A DNA stretch of 64,000 nucleotides from Salinadaptatus halalkaliphilus (GTDB lineage: Archaea; Halobacteriota; Halobacteria; Halobacteriales; Natrialbaceae), in NCBI RefSeq assembly GCF_006543045.1, contig NZ_RBZW01000019.1, positions 1-64,000 of the forward strand, given 5' to 3'. Position 1 is the first letter of the stretch. Each line of letters begins with the position of its first letter. Positions 57,548-64,000 of the stretch are shown piece by piece. Both the position numbers and the translations under genes were made by a program. The notes under the pieces were generated by a model that saw nothing but the letters and a program-made list of their open reading frames with translations, searched no databases and was not told where the DNA came from.

Positions 57548-58597
57548 TTAGAACAGCGGCGCGATCGGCTCGTCCCGAATCGATCCGCCGGTAACGCCAA
57601 CGGAAAGCGTCATCTCGCCGACCCCGTCCTCGAGGTCGAGAACCTCGCCCACTCGCCCTCGCGGATCGTAGTTCAACATGATGCGATTCGCGCCGCCAGG
57701 GTTCGCACGAAGGTGGTTCCACAGCGCTCGAGCGGCCGCTTCGTGGCCGGGTGCGTACCAATAATCCGACAGCATCGTCATCCGAAGTTCCTTGCTCTCG
57801 GGAATCGCCGGGGGTAACGCGTCCGCGTCCTCGAGTTCGGGCGGGAGCGAGTCGACCACCAGCGACATTACGTTGTGCATTTCGGAGGCGAAGACGCCGG
57901 CGACGACCTCGTCGTCGACCGTCGCGACGACGTATCGATGCAGCGGCTCGTCGATCGGCGAATCGGCGAGCCGACTCGTCAGCCCGTCGACCGTGTACGG
58001 TCGGTAGACATCGGTCTCCGCGTAGAAGTTGTTCGATCGATCGACCGCGGCGACCCGCTCTTCGGCGCTGGCGTCGTGGACATCGACATCGGTCGAGGGT
58101 GCCGCCGGAATCGGTGGTGCAGGGTACATGACGAACTCGGCCGCGAGCGAGTCGGCCCACCACGCCGCGACCGCTTCCGACGGGTCGTTGCCGTGCTGGA
58201 TGTTGGCGAAGACGACACAGTCCTCGCCGAGTTGCTCTCGTGCATGCGCGATTCGTCGCTCGACGATGCGTTTTGCGAGCCCGCGGTTCCGAAAGTCGGG
58301 GTGGACCGCGAGCGCGTTTAGCAACGCGCTCGGCCGAACCTCGCCGTCGAATCGCGCCTTCGTATTCGAGACGAAGCCCACCCCGACGAGCCGACCGTCG
58401 TCAGTTTCCGCGACGAACCCTGTCGTTTCCGGACGCAACCCCGCGTAGACCTCGTAGGGATCGTACTCGAATCGCGGTGCGAAACTGACCGCTCCCTCGT
58501 CCGGACTGTTGGTAAACAGCGTCCCAATCGCCTCCCCGTCGGCTGGCGTCGCCGTTCGAAGTCGAATCTCGCCCTCAGAATCAGTGTGTGTTTGCAT
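57548..58597 (-). CDS. GNAT-family N-acetyltransferase, 349 aa
   Basis: The N-terminal GNAT domain (RTATPADGEAIGTLF, LVGVGFVSNTKARFDG, LLNALAVHPDFRNRGLAKRIVERRIAHAREQLG with the acetyl-CoA motif RNRGLAKR) is followed by a second, degenerate GNAT-like half (RYVVATVDDEVVAGVFASE; YDPRGRVGEVLDL), as in two-domain family members. The substrate is unknown. ATG at 58597. Confidence 0.82.
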   Translation of the reverse strand: MQTHTDSEGEIRLRTATPADGEAIGTLFTNSPDEGAVSFAPRFEYDPYEVYAGLRPETTGFVAETDDGRLVGVGFVSNTKARFDGEVRPSALLNALAVHPDFRNRGLAKRIVERRIAHAREQLGEDCVVFANIQHGNDPSEAVAAWWADSLAAEFVMYPAPPIPAAPSTDVDVHDASAEERVAAVDRSNNFYAETDVYRPYTVDGLTSRLADSPIDEPLHRYVVATVDDEVVAGVFASEMHNVMSLVVDSLPPELEDADALPPAIPESKELRMTMLSDYWYAPGHEAAARALWNHLRANPGGANRIMLNYDPRGRVGEVLDLEDGVGEMTLSVGVTGGSIRDEPIAPLF

Positions 58598-58717: not shown

Positions 58718-59602
58718 TCAGTCGGCTGCGGACTCGTCGTCACTCTGTCCGCTGGTGGCCTCGTCCGTGTCGCTGTCGGCCTCGCCACTCGAGTCGTCAG
58801 TTTCGTCGGCGGAATCGTCACCGGACGACGCTTCGCCGTCCCCACCAGCGGTGCCATCGTCGCTGTCACTCGTCGACGATTGGTCGCTCGAGTCCTCGTC
58901 ACTGTCGTCATCTGTGCCCGTCTCGTCGCTCTCGGTGCTCGAACCGTCACCCCCGTCGTCCGAAGTGTCGTCACCCCCGTCGTCCGAAGTGTCGTCGCTC
59001 GAGTCCTCGTCACTGTCGTCATCCGTGGCCGTCTCGTCGCGTTCGTCGTCGCTCTCCCCACTGTCGTCGCCACCAGCCGTGTCGCCATCGTCTGGTTCAT
59101 CGGCAGGTGTCTCGTCGTCTGATTCTCCATCTTCGCTCTCGTCGTCCGACTGGTCGTCATCACCGTCGGTCCCGTCGTCCGACTGGTCGTCCTCCGAGTC
59201 TGGGTCGTCGCCGGTGCCGTCGTCACGCTCATCATCTTCCTCGTCGGTCGGTTCCTCGTCTGCAGCGCCATCGCCTGCTTTGCCGTCGTCGACACGCTGG
59301 TCTGACTCGTTGTCGTCGACGCTCTCGTCCGGACCGGACCCGGACGACGATCCGTTGGAGACATCCTGTGTTCCGTCGGCAGTATTGCCGTCCTCGTCGG
59401 TTCCGTTCTCGGTTTCCTCGCGGACCGGCTGGTCGTCTGCCGAGGTGGACTCGACCGTCGTGACCGCATCATCGTACGTTTCGGCCGTCGAAAACTCACC
59501 CGCCGTCCACTCGGAGTCGGTAAACACCGCGAGCGTCCCGCCACCCCCAACGACGGCACCCACGACGACGAGCAGCGAGAGGACGACAAGCACTCGCGTC
59601 AT
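58718..59602 (-). CDS. SipW-type secreted protein with Asp/Ser-rich low-complexity body, 294 aa
   Basis: MTRVLVVLSLLVVVGAVVGGGGTLAVFTDSE is a SipW-dependent signal peptide, recognised by the TLAVFTDSE motif near the cleavage site. Residues ~40-294 are almost entirely Asp, Ser, Glu, Gly and Thr repeats (SDDTSDDGGD, DDDSDEDSS), giving an extreme negative charge. It may be a matrix or linker protein outside the cell. It overlaps the signal peptidase gene by 4 bp, so the two are translated together. Confidence 0.75.
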   Translation of the reverse strand: MTRVLVVLSLLVVVGAVVGGGGTLAVFTDSEWTAGEFSTAETYDDAVTTVESTSADDQPVREETENGTDEDGNTADGTQDVSNGSSSGSGPDESVDDNESDQRVDDGKAGDGAADEEPTDEEDDERDDGTGDDPDSEDDQSDDGTDGDDDQSDDESEDGESDDETPADEPDDGDTAGGDDSGESDDERDETATDDDSDEDSSDDTSDDGGDDTSDDGGDGSSTESDETGTDDDSDEDSSDQSSTSDSDDGTAGGDGEASSGDDSADETDDSSGEADSDTDEATSGQSDDESAAD

Positions 59603-60687
59603 TCGCTCACCCCACTCGAGTCGGGGCTGTCTGCCCCATCGACATCAGCCTCGTCCGGAGCGCCGGCGGCCGTCGGAACCGGCTTTTCACGGTCGAGATC
59701 ATCATCGGTCTCGGACGCAGTCGATGCAGGCCAGTCTACCGGATCGGCTTCGGGAAGAGCGTCGGGGTCCAGGCGTTGCTCGTCGCCAGTCGAACGCTCC
59801 CACACGAACGGTCCGTCGGTTCCATTGGCGTCCGCTTCGCTACCCGATCCGTCTGCCGGTTCACTCGAGCCAGCGGACGTGTCTCTGGACCTGTCGTTGA
59901 ATTTCGCCAGCAGCCAGACGCTCCCGAGCGCGAGCGTCGAGAACGTCGTCGCAAACGCAGCGGTAATCGTCATTACCGTCGAGAGCTGTACCGCCACGTA
60001 GATCGTGTACGGTGTGACAAGTGCTAATACGCCGAGTGTAATTGTCAGATCCGTTACGTGCACGCCGACGGGATCGGTCGCCTGTGTCGAGGCTGTCGAA
60101 CCGGGTGTCGCCATCGATCCACCGTCGGAGGCCGGCAACTCGCGGTCGGCACTCGCGTCAGTTTCGGTCTCCTCGAGGGGTTCCGGGTCGTCGTCGACCG
60201 CCCGGAGCATCGTCCAGACCTCCGAGAGGACCAAGAGCCCGACCGGAACGCCGACCAGCAACAGGAGGCCGGGCGTGGTCCCCCCGAACTGGATGACGTA
60301 GCCGATCAGCGGGAGCGTCACCGCGACCGATCCGAGGACGTTCTCCCCGGGCACGAGTTGCGTATCCGGTTCGGGGTTCGCGTCGCCTTGCGTTTGAAAC
60401 GCCACCTCACCGCCTTGCTCCCGAACGTCGATCACGCGATGCGTAACCGGAATTTCGGCGTCGGATCGGGCGTACGTGATGACATCGCCCTCCTCGATCA
60501 ACGCCGGATCCGCCTCTTCGACGATGACGACATCTCCTGGGGAGATATCCGGTTCCATGCTTCCCGAGAGGACGACGAAACTGTGATCGGCGCCGATCGC
60601 GCCCGGCACGGCGTAGACGAAAAACGGTGCGACCAGCGCGATCAACACCACGAGGCCGACGATGTGTGTGATTCTGCGGAGATTCAC
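59599..60687 (-). CDS. SipW-type signal peptidase I, 362 aa
   Basis: A membrane peptidase that cleaves signal peptides of camelysin/TasA-type proteins. The nucleophile Ser43 is in VVLSGSMEPDISPGDVV, and VTHRVIDV gives His83, the archaeal/eukaryotic Ser-His pair rather than bacterial Ser-Lys. The core is residues ~1-130; further helices (IGYVIQFGGTTPGLLLLVGVPVGLLVL; LTITLGVLALVTPYTIYVAVQL; ITAAFATTFSTLALGSVWLL) and an acidic tail extend it beyond usual size. It is flanked by probable substrates on both sides with 4-bp overlaps. Confidence 0.87.
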   Translation of the reverse strand: MNLRRITHIVGLVVLIALVAPFFVYAVPGAIGADHSFVVLSGSMEPDISPGDVVIVEEADPALIEEGDVITYARSDAEIPVTHRVIDVREQGGEVAFQTQGDANPEPDTQLVPGENVLGSVAVTLPLIGYVIQFGGTTPGLLLLVGVPVGLLVLSEVWTMLRAVDDDPEPLEETETDASADRELPASDGGSMATPGSTASTQATDPVGVHVTDLTITLGVLALVTPYTIYVAVQLSTVMTITAAFATTFSTLALGSVWLLAKFNDRSRDTSAGSSEPADGSGSEADANGTDGPFVWERSTGDEQRLDPDALPEADPVDWPASTASETDDDLDREKPVPTAAGAPDEADVDGADSPDSSGVSE

Positions 60688-61787
60688 GACGAGTCACCCC
60701 CCTCCTCGTCGGCACAGACGTATACGGTAATGTTGCTGATCCCCGGCCGTTCGCCGTCCTCGACCGAGTCCGGATCAGTTTTCGCTTCGCCGTGGGCCGC
60801 ACAGACCTCTCGCCGCGTCCGGGTCAGCGGCGGATCGACATCGTATGCGGCGACACGGGAGTCGGGATCATTCGGCGGCCGCATTGGTCGTCCACCACCG
60901 ACGGTAACCCGACAGATCGGTGGCGCGTCTCGCTCCGCGCCGTTTTCCAGTATTCGAACACTTGCACACACGGTTTCCGTCTCGCTGTCGTCGCGTTTAT
61001 TCGTCACTCTCAGCACCTCGAGTCGGTACTCATCGCTGGTATTCTCGAACGCCCCGTACAGTTCGTCGAACGCGTACGACCGTGGCTCAAGTCGATCGCC
61101 GACGACATCGACTTTCCCCAGTTTCGTACAATCGGGACACTCGAGGTCCGGACAGTCAGTTGCCGTCGCAGGCGGACTCGAGCGGTCGGCGTCGGAAACG
61201 CCTCTGCACTGCTCGGCGAATAGCTGCAGCGAAAGCGCCGTCGTCAGGTTCGCGGTCCAGTCGGCCGTCGACGGCAGCTCGTACTCGAGTTGCAAGGAGA
61301 GGTCGTCCCCCGGGGACAGACAGGGTTCTCCGAGTCGATCGTCCAGACGGATGCCGTCGCTGAACGCGGCGCCGAGTTCGTCGAGCGAACCGGTATCACC
61401 ACTGTCGGGGAACAGCTGTTCGTCCGCCCCGTCGCGAACGAACGAGAGTCGAACCTGCATCGCCTCGCCGAGCGGATCGACGGCGGGCGGACACGCGGTC
61501 GTGAGCCAGAGCCGGGACGGATTATCCTCGATCGTGATATCGAACGTCTCCTCTCCCCCAACGCCCGGCTCGAGTGTCTCGAACGTGGCCGTGATCGATC
61601 CGTTCTCCGCCCGGCAGTCCGAACACTCCACGTGGGTCGATACGGTCCCCGCCTGGATGCGTACCGATCCACGCTCGGTAGTACCAAAACGGGCGGCGGT
61701 CACCCCAGCACTTGCCCCGATCGCTCCCGCACCAGCGACTGCCCCCAGCAGCTGGCGTCGGGTCGGTTCGAACGATCTATCTGTCAT
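60684..61787 (-). CDS. SipW-dependent secreted protein (TasA/camelysin-like), 367 aa
   Basis: FEPTRRQLLGAVAGAGAIGASAGVTAARFG is a hydrophobic signal with RR preceding it. The mature domain has the pattern THVECSDCRAENGSITATFETLEPGVGGEETFDITIEDNPSRLWLTT with paired cysteines, which resembles TasA/camelysin beta proteins. An N-terminal CSDC and multiple later Cys pairs (CPDLECPDC) may form disulfides outside. The ATGA overlap with the signal peptidase indicates coupling. Confidence 0.72.
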   Translation of the reverse strand: MTDRSFEPTRRQLLGAVAGAGAIGASAGVTAARFGTTERGSVRIQAGTVSTHVECSDCRAENGSITATFETLEPGVGGEETFDITIEDNPSRLWLTTACPPAVDPLGEAMQVRLSFVRDGADEQLFPDSGDTGSLDELGAAFSDGIRLDDRLGEPCLSPGDDLSLQLEYELPSTADWTANLTTALSLQLFAEQCRGVSDADRSSPPATATDCPDLECPDCTKLGKVDVVGDRLEPRSYAFDELYGAFENTSDEYRLEVLRVTNKRDDSETETVCASVRILENGAERDAPPICRVTVGGGRPMRPPNDPDSRVAAYDVDPPLTRTRREVCAAHGEAKTDPDSVEDGERPGISNITVYVCADEEGGDSS

Positions 61788-62244
61788 GAATCTTCTCTGG
61801 ATTGGGTTTCGCAGCGTCGGCAGCCGTCCGCACTCGAGTCACTGCCGTGTGGTCTCACCGTCACTGCTGTCGGTGCGGGTCCTGCCATCGATTGGGTCTG
61901 GTCGGCGACGCGACGACCGGTCGGGTGCCACCCCCTGACGGATACCGACGGGTCGCCCGCGTTCGCCGCTCTATCGAACACGGCGGTCGCCAGTGCAGGT
62001 TCCGGCGGATAGCCGACGGTCGTCCACCCCCGGCCGTTTCGCGCCCGAACCTGGTTGCGGATCAGCGAGTGACACATCATAAGAATAACTTGTATACTGG
62101 AGTGTCACCAGTGTGTAAGCATTGCTTACTGGCGTTCAAGCCCGCCCTGCCGGCCTCGATCTGCGGACGGAATGGTCCTCGCCCCTGGCAGGGTTGGTCG
62201 GACACGTCGATCGGTGATCCGTGGTCGGTCATTGGTCGTGGAAA
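61788..62244. other. Intergenic with hairpin and AT-rich promoter-like region
   Basis: The region separates two co-directional secreted-protein genes. GTAAGC-ATT-GCTTAC (62115-62129), flanked by CCAG and TGG, forms a stem-loop about 115 nt past the stop of the upstream gene. ATAAGAATAACTTGTATAC at about 62079-62097 is AT-rich and could hold the promoter of the minus-strand operon at 61787, with a long leader. No gene is visible. Confidence 0.45.
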
Positions 62245-62943
62245 TTAACACTGCGTGGCATCGAACGTCAGATCGAACTCGAGTGAGTCGCCCTGGACCG
62301 CGTTGATGTTTGGCTGGTTCGGCGGGAACGACCAGCCGAAGGTGATCGTGACATCATCATCGTCGTCCACTTCGAGGCAGTTCGAGCCCAGCGGATTCGG
62401 GGACGAGTGGAGTGAGACACCGTCGTCGAGGGCCGCTGCGACATCAGCGACGGTGCCTTCGGCGGCGGGATCGACGAGTGCCTCGCCGAAATCGCGCACG
62501 CCGTTGTTCGCGCCCAGGGGATCGACCCCCAGAAGCCCAACGTCGTACCAGACGGCAGCCTCGATGAACTCCTGCAGACCGGGCGAGTTCAGTTCCCCTC
62601 GCAGATCGACGGTGACCGACGGTTCGACCGCGAGGTCATCCTCGCCCTCGAGGCGGAGCCGAACGCTCAGCGTGCCCGAATCGCCCGGGAGGACGTTCCC
62701 CAACGAAATCGCTGGACCGGTCGGGGAACGACTGGCGGCGCCGTCAGACGCGTCGACCAGCGTGGCGCCGTTGTACGTTTCCCGCCAATCGACGACGAGT
62801 CCGTCGACGCTCTCGGTCTGAATCGGTGCCGTGTCGGTAAACGCACGGCTCCGGTCGGTCGTCAGCACCAGTCCGGCCGTCGCGACCGACGTGGCACCGA
62901 CCAGTCCAGCAAGCAGTTGTCTTCGCGGCATTCGATCGATCAT
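62245..62943 (-). CDS. SipW-dependent secreted protein (TasA/camelysin-like), 232 aa
   Basis: The signal region MPRRQLLAGLVGATSVATAGLVLTTDRSRAFTDT ends in an F-T-D motif typical of SipW substrates. The mature domain follows the TasA-like pattern: LGNVLPGDSGTLSVRLRLEGEDDLAVEPSVTVDL, AVWYDVGLLGVDPLGANNGV, and a C-terminal strand DSLEFDLTFDATQC. ATG at 62943 is the first start with signal-peptide character; ATG at 62931 is an alternative. Confidence 0.72.
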   Translation of the reverse strand: MIDRMPRRQLLAGLVGATSVATAGLVLTTDRSRAFTDTAPIQTESVDGLVVDWRETYNGATLVDASDGAASRSPTGPAISLGNVLPGDSGTLSVRLRLEGEDDLAVEPSVTVDLRGELNSPGLQEFIEAAVWYDVGLLGVDPLGANNGVRDFGEALVDPAAEGTVADVAAALDDGVSLHSSPNPLGSNCLEVDDDDDVTITFGWSFPPNQPNINAVQGDSLEFDLTFDATQC

Positions 62944-63061
62944 GGCTATTCGTGTGCGTACCCGTGATACGGGACGGATGCCCGCCGACGGAATCGAACC
63001 GTCGAACTGCCAGCGCGGGTCGAAACGGGGGAGTAGTGGGATGATGGTGGTGGTGCGTGTG

Positions 63062-64000
63062 CTAGAATCCCGATGGCCCCGATGGGATGTCGTTGTGGCG
63101 ACACTGCTCGGTGTAGAACCCGAGGTCGAAACGCAGCGAGCGTCCCTGCAGCTCGTTGATGTCTTCGAGGTGGGACGGCGTCGTCGTCGGGAGACACCAC
63201 TCGAACGCGACGCAGAACGTCTCGTTCGGCGGGAAACACGGCGGGACGAAGTCGCCATCGGGACAGTACCGGAACTCGATGACGTTGATTTCGTCTTCGT
63301 CTTCGCCTTCGCCTTCGCTCTCCGGGATTCGGACGTTGGTCTGGCCGGTCGTACAGCCGTCAAACGTCACGAGGGTGTCGCCATCCTCGTTGATCAGGAT
63401 CTCGCCGAATCCGAAGTCGTCGCTCGCATCGACGATGTCCCAGTCGAACTGCCTGATGTTCGACAGATCGTCTGCGTCTGCATCGACCGCGGTCCGTTCC
63501 TGCCCGTCCGGCGTTGGAATCTGAAGATCGGACAGCACCACGTCGAACCAGACCGATTCGTCCTCCGGGACGAGACGGAGTTCGATCTCCACCTCGTCGA
63601 CGCCGTCGTCGTTTTCGTCCCGAATCTCGAGGACCTCGCCGTATTCGACGGCTGCACCGTTTTCCTCGAGCGTGATCGGATCGAGGTCCTGCGGGTCACC
63701 AGGATCGCCACCCGATTCGACGCCTTCCCCGTACACGTCCGGGTTCAGCAGCCGGCCGTCCGGAGAGAGACGATCGTCGAGGAAGGTCTTCAGATCGGTC
63801 GTCTCGATGAGGACGGTGTCGCCGTCGTCCTCGAGCAGCGTGTTGGTACAGCCGAGATCGTACCACGCCTGGACCTGGATCGCTTCCGCCAGATCCGCGT
63901 CGTACTCGCCGGTCTCGGCCAGCATCCAGATGTATCCCGGGTTATCACAGAGGTGAAGGCTAAACGTGACTTCACCGCAGTCGCCGGGCTTGACGTCGTC
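63062..64000 (-). CDS. SipW-dependent secreted protein (TasA-like), partial
   Basis: The frame is open to the window edge, so the N-terminus with its signal peptide lies beyond 64000. It reads DDVKPGDCGEVTFSLHLCDNPGYIWMLAETGEYDADLAEAIQVQAWYDLGC, the most characteristic TasA-like block (KPGDxGxVxxSLHxxxNPGYIW). Asp-rich segments, an SEGEGEDEDE stretch and a C-terminal strand with paired Cys (FCVAFEWCLPTTTPS; LGFYTEQC) follow. Likely a fibre- or matrix-forming protein processed by the signal peptidase encoded downstream. Confidence 0.75.
   Translation of the reverse strand, partial: DDVKPGDCGEVTFSLHLCDNPGYIWMLAETGEYDADLAEAIQVQAWYDLGCTNTLLEDDGDTVLIETTDLKTFLDDRLSPDGRLLNPDVYGEGVESGGDPGDPQDLDPITLEENGAAVEYGEVLEIRDENDDGVDEVEIELRLVPEDESVWFDVVLSDLQIPTPDGQERTAVDADADDLSNIRQFDWDIVDASDDFGFGEILINEDGDTLVTFDGCTTGQTNVRIPESEGEGEDEDEINVIEFRYCPDGDFVPPCFPPNETFCVAFEWCLPTTTPSHLEDINELQGRSLRFDLGFYTEQCRHNDIPSGPSGF

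Follow-up and report, generated by a model that had tools for sequence, protein, structure and literature searches.

The 64,000-nucleotide window analysed here, positions 1 to 64,000 of contig NZ_RBZW01000019.1 (contig C26) of the haloarchaeon Salinadaptatus halalkaliphilus, ends in a group of genes built around a SipW-type signal peptidase. This fibre system is known from genes and models, and the group very probably represents a TasA-type fibre operon. The gene that follows SipW, g6, is kept beside the peptidase among relatives; its start is kept as well, and its body is not. The reading that we prefer, to which we give slightly better than an even chance, is of a haloarchaeal operon dedicated to donor-strand fibres of the TasA family, in which g6 would stand at the fibre end. 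The window covers most of the contig (70,810 bases, in a genome of 4.5 Mb), and g1, g2, g3, g4, SipW and g6 all lie on the minus strand:

Contig 65288..64509, minus strand: g1, TasA-like protein of 259 amino acids, beyond the window edge (TIGR04088, 34.6 bits)
Window 63062..64000, full gene contig 64477..63062, minus strand: g2, TasA-like protein of 471 amino acids (TIGR04088, 20 bits)
62943..62245, minus strand: g3, 232 amino acids, with twin-arginine signal and predicted TasA-like domain (family profile)
61787..60684, minus strand: g4, 367 amino acids, with twin-arginine signal, predicted TasA-like domain and second conserved domain (model and profile)
60687..59599, minus strand: SipW-type signal peptidase, 362 amino acids, with C-terminal extension (TIGR02228, alignment of 35)
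60559..60561, minus strand: codon of the catalytic Ser43 of SipW, invariant in 35/35
60439..60441, minus strand: codon of the catalytic His83 of SipW, invariant in 35/35
58718..59602, minus strand: g6, 294 amino acids, with Sec-like signal, TasA-like N-terminal segment and long acidic low-complexity tail (TIGR04088, position after SipW)
59459..59542, minus strand: conserved segment of g6 (residues 21-48), resembling the TasA-like N-terminus or donor region (profile comparison, identity)

One peptidase and its putative substrates at a single locus

The peptidase scores 117.5 bits against NCBIfam TIGR02228 (cut-off 51.85) and thus belongs to the archaeal/SipW-type signal peptidases I. It stays below the cut-off of the Bacillus SipW equivalog NF046067 (108.9 bits; cut-off 190). 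The Ser-His pair named in a preliminary description of this DNA was recovered as Ser43 and His83, invariant in the 35 aligned long SipW sequences. That description was also accurate on the 4-bp overlaps of SipW with g4 and with g6, and on the last TasA-like gene leaving the window: g2 crosses position 64000. Extension past this position completed g2 to 64477 and revealed an additional TasA-like gene, g1. In place of the four substrates first proposed, we count five candidates (g1, g2, g3, g4 and g6), with g1 outside the window.

SipW is the sole match of the SipW search at E<=1e-20 in its own genome. The model of the SipW-dependent signal, TIGR04088, matches only three genes genome-wide, g1, g2 and g6 (27.1 bits for g6; cut-off 19), and g3 and g4 fall below the cut-off. 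One SipW and three genes with this signal, all found here, indicate that the peptidase and its substrates form a single dedicated locus. At E<=0.1, TIGR04088 is found in 40/40 TasA-like relatives, 24/40 g4 relatives and 0/33 g3 relatives, and a scan with NCBIfam-type models gave no family assignment for g3 or g4. The long SipW itself carries a C-terminal extension (59599-60220), which comprises another hydrophobic region as well as a hydrophilic tail; at other loci, SipW has just 180-230 residues.

Conservation of the gene order in Halobacteria

A SipW match at E<=1e-20 is present in 110 of the 293 genomes of the order. For the relatives, 60 SipW matches were fetched, mostly better-scoring ones, and some second copies were skipped. 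As this set is part of the matches of the search, the rates given here describe relatives of this SipW. The 141 scanned loci reduce to 120 that are distinct by SipW sequence. A SipW of at least 280 residues was called long, by gene call in a set of 48 loci and by open frame in a set of 104, the two sets being slightly different. Among the named loci, which are the best 80 of 101 relatives, are those of Natronorubrum thiooxidans (L168; 57% identity over the best segment) and of Natrialbaceae genomes.

In the gene maps, the order TasA-like genes, g3, g4, SipW and g6 recurs across Halobacteria. Since the identical order is found again in other haloarchaea, the arrangement goes beyond chance. The g6 profile is located directly after SipW in 89 of the 104 distinct long-SipW loci and one gene further in 5/104. 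The remaining 10/104 were judged by eye from the translations: nine contain a clear g6 and one (L094) is atypical. The spacing between SipW and the next gene is -4, -1 or 0 in 37/48 long-SipW loci; locus L051 has unread bases after SipW, and at L076 the gene appears frame-broken in the assembly.

The loci with a short SipW have a simpler gene content, and the g6 profile follows SipW directly in 10 of 16. A unit of three genes, in which SipW is accompanied by a single TasA-like gene and a g6-type gene, is found in the Haloferax loci L161 and L163. It parallels the tapA-sipW-tasA operon of Bacillus, described as three genes (PMC9674648). Among open-licence papers, no description of this haloarchaeal cluster was found.

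Predicted TasA fold of the putative subunits

The AlphaFold2 model of g1 has a mean predicted local distance difference test (pLDDT) score of 77.1, low at residues 23-39, and that of g4 has a pLDDT of 84.5. Foldseek places TasA first for both, with 8aur at E 3.0e-3 for g1 and TasA at E 8.4e-5 for the first domain of g4. The VIA lists are likewise headed by TasA: for g1, 8aur (Z 8.9), 5of2 (8.1) and 5of1 (7.9) precede the next row at 6.3, and for g4 the three TasA rows (Z 8.5, 8.4 and 8.3) are followed by the Sulfolobus 0406 filament (7.3) and the Pyrobaculum bundling pilin (6.5). Against the TasA-like family profile, the mature parts of g3 and g4 reach E 1.3e-32 and 5.4e-31, respectively, and the top two matches of that profile in the PDB are both TasA (E 0.026 and 0.032). 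In addition, g2 shares the TasA-like N-terminus of the family, and an N-terminal motif is common to the TasA-like paralogues.

Based on these models, a TasA (jelly-roll) fold is supported for g1 and g4, and the profile supports g3 as a probable TasA relative. The fold had been suggested in the preliminary description, as had a link to archaeal bundling pili; the former agrees with the top structural matches, and the latter with the Pyrobaculum pilin lower in the same lists.

Several results weigh against this assignment. With the camelysin model of Pfam (PF12389; cut-off 22.5), g1, g2 and g3 reach 18.0, 21.7 and 18.2 bits and g4 gives no match; g1-g4 are therefore filed as TasA-like by fold and not as members of the Pfam family. 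The g3 and g4 profiles found no TasA in the PDB, the PDB profile matches are weak, and the VIA scores are modest (Z 8 to 9), at the edge of the range in which the tool can be trusted. Despite the modest Z, the position of TasA at the head of both structure lists and the agreement of the sequence give added weight to the assignment. The second domain of g4 (60684-61130; residues ~217-355) is confidently modelled, contains conserved cysteines and is barely covered by the structure comparisons.

A conserved start and a free body in g6

The gene after SipW was examined in the 48 long-SipW loci. Nearly all of these genes encode an N-terminal hydrophobic signal and the motif T-x-A-x-(L/F)-(S/T)-(D/A). 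The tails of the g6-type proteins are acidic (D+E up to 0.60), rich in sequons (up to 23), Thr-rich, short, or provided with added domains. At L080 and L086, inspection by eye revealed PKD-like sequence, in repeats at L080, replacing the low-complexity tail. The PGF-pre-PGF model was found in 2/45 g6 members (E<=0.1).

The g6 profiles were built from 43 proteins, labelled by profile or clear by eye, leaving out the genes of L067, L076, L077, L084 and L091 and those of the short-SipW loci. For the comparison of identity along the protein, 39 of the 43 could be placed. The 28-residue segment after the hydrophobic core has an identity of 0.293, against 0.097 when shuffled, and the following segments are at the shuffled level (0.112/0.099 and 0.102/0.102). 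The g6 gene is thus kept and its start is kept, whereas its body is not.

As an account of the main role of g6, the earlier view of a novel acidic substrate with a body that could coat fibres or space them is not supported: across SipW loci, the body is unconserved, and what is conserved is the signal with a donor-like N-terminus. An acidic body was rejected as a conserved feature of g6, as composition and sequence differ between loci. "Asp/Ser-only" was a loose wording even for the protein of S. halalkaliphilus, in which the tail is rich in D/E/S/T/G, with 45% D+E and 26% S+T (D/E/S/T/G/N/P/A reach 93%). A spacer role for this tail is possible. Membership of g6 in the TapA family (TIGR04087) was also rejected, with no match for g6 itself and matches in 2/45 relatives (best E 0.047).

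A putative donor strand for the fibre end

The conserved g6 segment was compared with those of the other proteins without the hydrophobic core, using 200 column permutations as a control. It scored 25.0 against the TasA-like segment (permutation maximum 15.4) and 30.7 against the g4 segment (maximum 14.1). With the g3 segment, no match was obtained (4.5). In TasA, the donor strand is described as residues 28-38, making contacts via F29, I32 and F39 (PMC9674648), and a Phe is reported at P2' of the SipW site (PMC10269814). We infer that T-x-A is the SipW cleavage site. Taken as such, it brings L, F, I or Y to the F29 position in 43/43 g6 proteins and F, I, V or L to the F39 position in 43/43.

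The g6 sequence thus combines a TasA-like N-terminus with the lack of an acceptor (jelly-roll) domain, a combination that would make it TapA-like. According to the descriptions in PMC10151520 and PMC9674648, TapA gives the first strand and has a place only at the filament start. The former source places it there because TapA cannot receive a strand, and reports that a strain secreting TapA 44-57 alone formed a proper biofilm (PMC10151520). A donor strand without a groove, as predicted for g6, could occupy a fibre end only. The best single reading of g6 would be an end subunit that only donates a strand and works like TapA; we consider it about an even call.

In the mechanism that we propose, g1 to g4 would be exported folded via the twin-arginine translocation (Tat) pathway and g6 via Sec. 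In g1, g2, g4 and g6, SipW would cut two positions ahead of a leucine or an aromatic residue, thereby freeing an N-terminal strand, and the freed strand of each subunit would occupy the groove of the subunit that follows. Like TapA in Bacillus, g6 would donate the first strand as the initiator. Its disordered tail, whether acidic, sequon-rich or domain-bearing, might act as an end tether or cap.

Three observations speak against the end role. At the position of I32 of TasA, g6 has no hydrophobic preference. Its motif coincides in part with the residues that SipW presumably recognises, and TIGR04088 spans the same stretch, so that recognition alone could conserve it. Finally, TIGR04088 is found in just 12/45 g6 members at E<=0.1. 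The even odds that we give the end role reflect above all the possibility that recognition by SipW would be enough to keep these residues.

Alternative explanations

This ambiguity is the basis of a rather unlikely alternative, in which g6 would be secreted as a polyelectrolyte or as a glycosylated matrix protein and would coat the fibres or space them, its N-terminus being conserved only for recognition and cutting by SipW. The tails are indeed long and hydrophilic, with many acidic residues or N-glycosylation sequons, and the conserved segment contains the SipW-type signal. However, tail composition differs freely between loci, with identity at the shuffled level, and the conserved hydrophobic positions extend 12 residues beyond the presumed cut, although recognition could still explain them.

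A bolder extension of the end-subunit reading, which we regard as unlikely, would assign both fibre ends to separate proteins: g6 would be the first and g3 the last, as a cap or membrane base, while g1, g2 and g4 would both give and take strands. The folded subunits would leave via Tat and polymerise only once SipW has freed their strands outside, and the g6 tail would be a cargo at the fibre end that can be exchanged (acidic brush, glycan-bearing stretch or PKD-type domain). The part given to g3, a TasA-like groove without the strand motif and hence acceptor-only, is based on motif absence (TIGR04088 in 0/33). Between the twin arginine and a conserved Trp, g3 is similar in length to the TasA-like proteins and has a different recurring pattern (YTYAQ-like). 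Compared with the TasA-like segment, the g3 segment scored 13.4 (probability 12.8) without a permutation control, and the g4 segment scored 55.6.

By analogy with CapP of the Bacillus cereus sipW-tasA/calY-capP system, g6 might stay anchored in the membrane by its N-terminal helix and act beside SipW as a tether or assembly guard, holding subunits or blocking early polymerisation. CapP, a substrate of SipW, is described as needed for assembly, and its disordered C-terminal part, made of repeats and variable between strains, as modulating it (PMC13082335); the strict neighbourhood of g6 and SipW would fit such a role. Yet g6 has the T-x-A-x-(L/F) site as in the cleaved TasA-like proteins, and it has just ~28 residues after the hydrophobic core where the conserved N-domain of CapP, which bears DUF4047, spans ~150 residues. 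This role is therefore improbable.

It is very improbable that the jelly-roll proteins are S-layer-associated or secreted surface proteins that have a common fold with TasA, rather than fibre subunits: the fibres are deduced from genes and models alone, the sequence matches to TasA are weak and many unrelated beta-sandwiches appear at Z 5 to 6, but TasA outranks every other structure for each of two models, and the paralogues with their common N-terminal motif are accompanied by SipW and a putative strand-only partner.

Export signals and a separate TafA locus

A twin arginine precedes the hydrophobic core in 143/156 TasA-like proteins, 39/40 g3 and 46/48 g4, and by eye most of the proteins without it are cut at the locus edge or have a wrong start call. 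Among the genes after SipW, it is found in 5/48, one of which is a displaced g4. Against Tat export, the Tat model at E<=0.1 matches only 12/40 TasA-like proteins, 2/40 g4 and 5/33 g3. Because this model is weak here, Tat export of the folded subunits, suggested by their signals, stays an inference.

The TafA fimbrial protein (NCBIfam NF052520) and PDB 9p0a ("Pilin"), which presumably belong to one system, have a twin-arginine signal and an N-terminal pattern similar to those of the TasA-like subunits here. The same genome carries a taf-type fimbrial locus on contig C28 (188001-203000; L190), which comprises several TafA-like genes together with a signal peptidase of its own and a helix-turn-helix (HTH)-like gene. 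The SipW cluster was rejected as the TafA system, as all NF052520 matches of the genome are on contig C28. There was also no match of g1 to the TafA model at E<=0.1, and no relatives of g3, g4 or g6 were found at the taf-type locus. Given the TafA family and 9p0a in the databases and this separate locus, a fibre subunit with a Tat-type signal is not without precedent.

Comparison with known systems

Among the closest known systems is the tapA-sipW-tasA operon of Bacillus subtilis, which also combines TasA-like subunits and SipW with a partner whose N-terminus is TasA-like. In contrast to the partner in B. subtilis, g6 has no immunoglobulin (Ig) domain and is outside the TapA family. Several TasA-like paralogues are present here, no counterpart of g3 or g4 is stated for B. 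subtilis, and the subunit signals carry a twin arginine. AbpA of the archaeal bundling pili of Pyrobaculum calidifontis forms a jelly-roll donor-strand fibre, as described in PMC10151520 and PMC9674648, of the kind proposed here; its structure (7ueg) ranks below TasA in VIA, at Z 5.9 for g1 and 6.5 for g4, among unrelated rows.

Neighbouring genes

Three DUF7344 HTH-type genes are located upstream of the operon (contig C26 65666-68580):

Locus L001 9666-10202, 11338-11925 and 11975-12580: DUF7344 HTH-type genes, the nearest divergent to the operon

Across the loci with a readable 5' flank, the nearest 5' gene is DUF7344-like in 32 of 39; of these 32 loci, 31 have it on the other strand. Downstream of g6, an acetyltransferase-like gene (57548-58597) is found, a close relative of which is also present downstream of SipW in loci L037 and L093.

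Implications for fibre initiation

Little is known outside Bacillus about how donor-strand fibres start and stop without a chaperone-usher machine. Beside the haloarchaeal SipW, a putative strand-only partner is nearly always kept, with a body that is free to change. Initiation thereby becomes testable with a short peptide and the three-gene Haloferax unit. If the proposed role of g6 is true, it would suggest that separate lineages have reached the same initiator logic.

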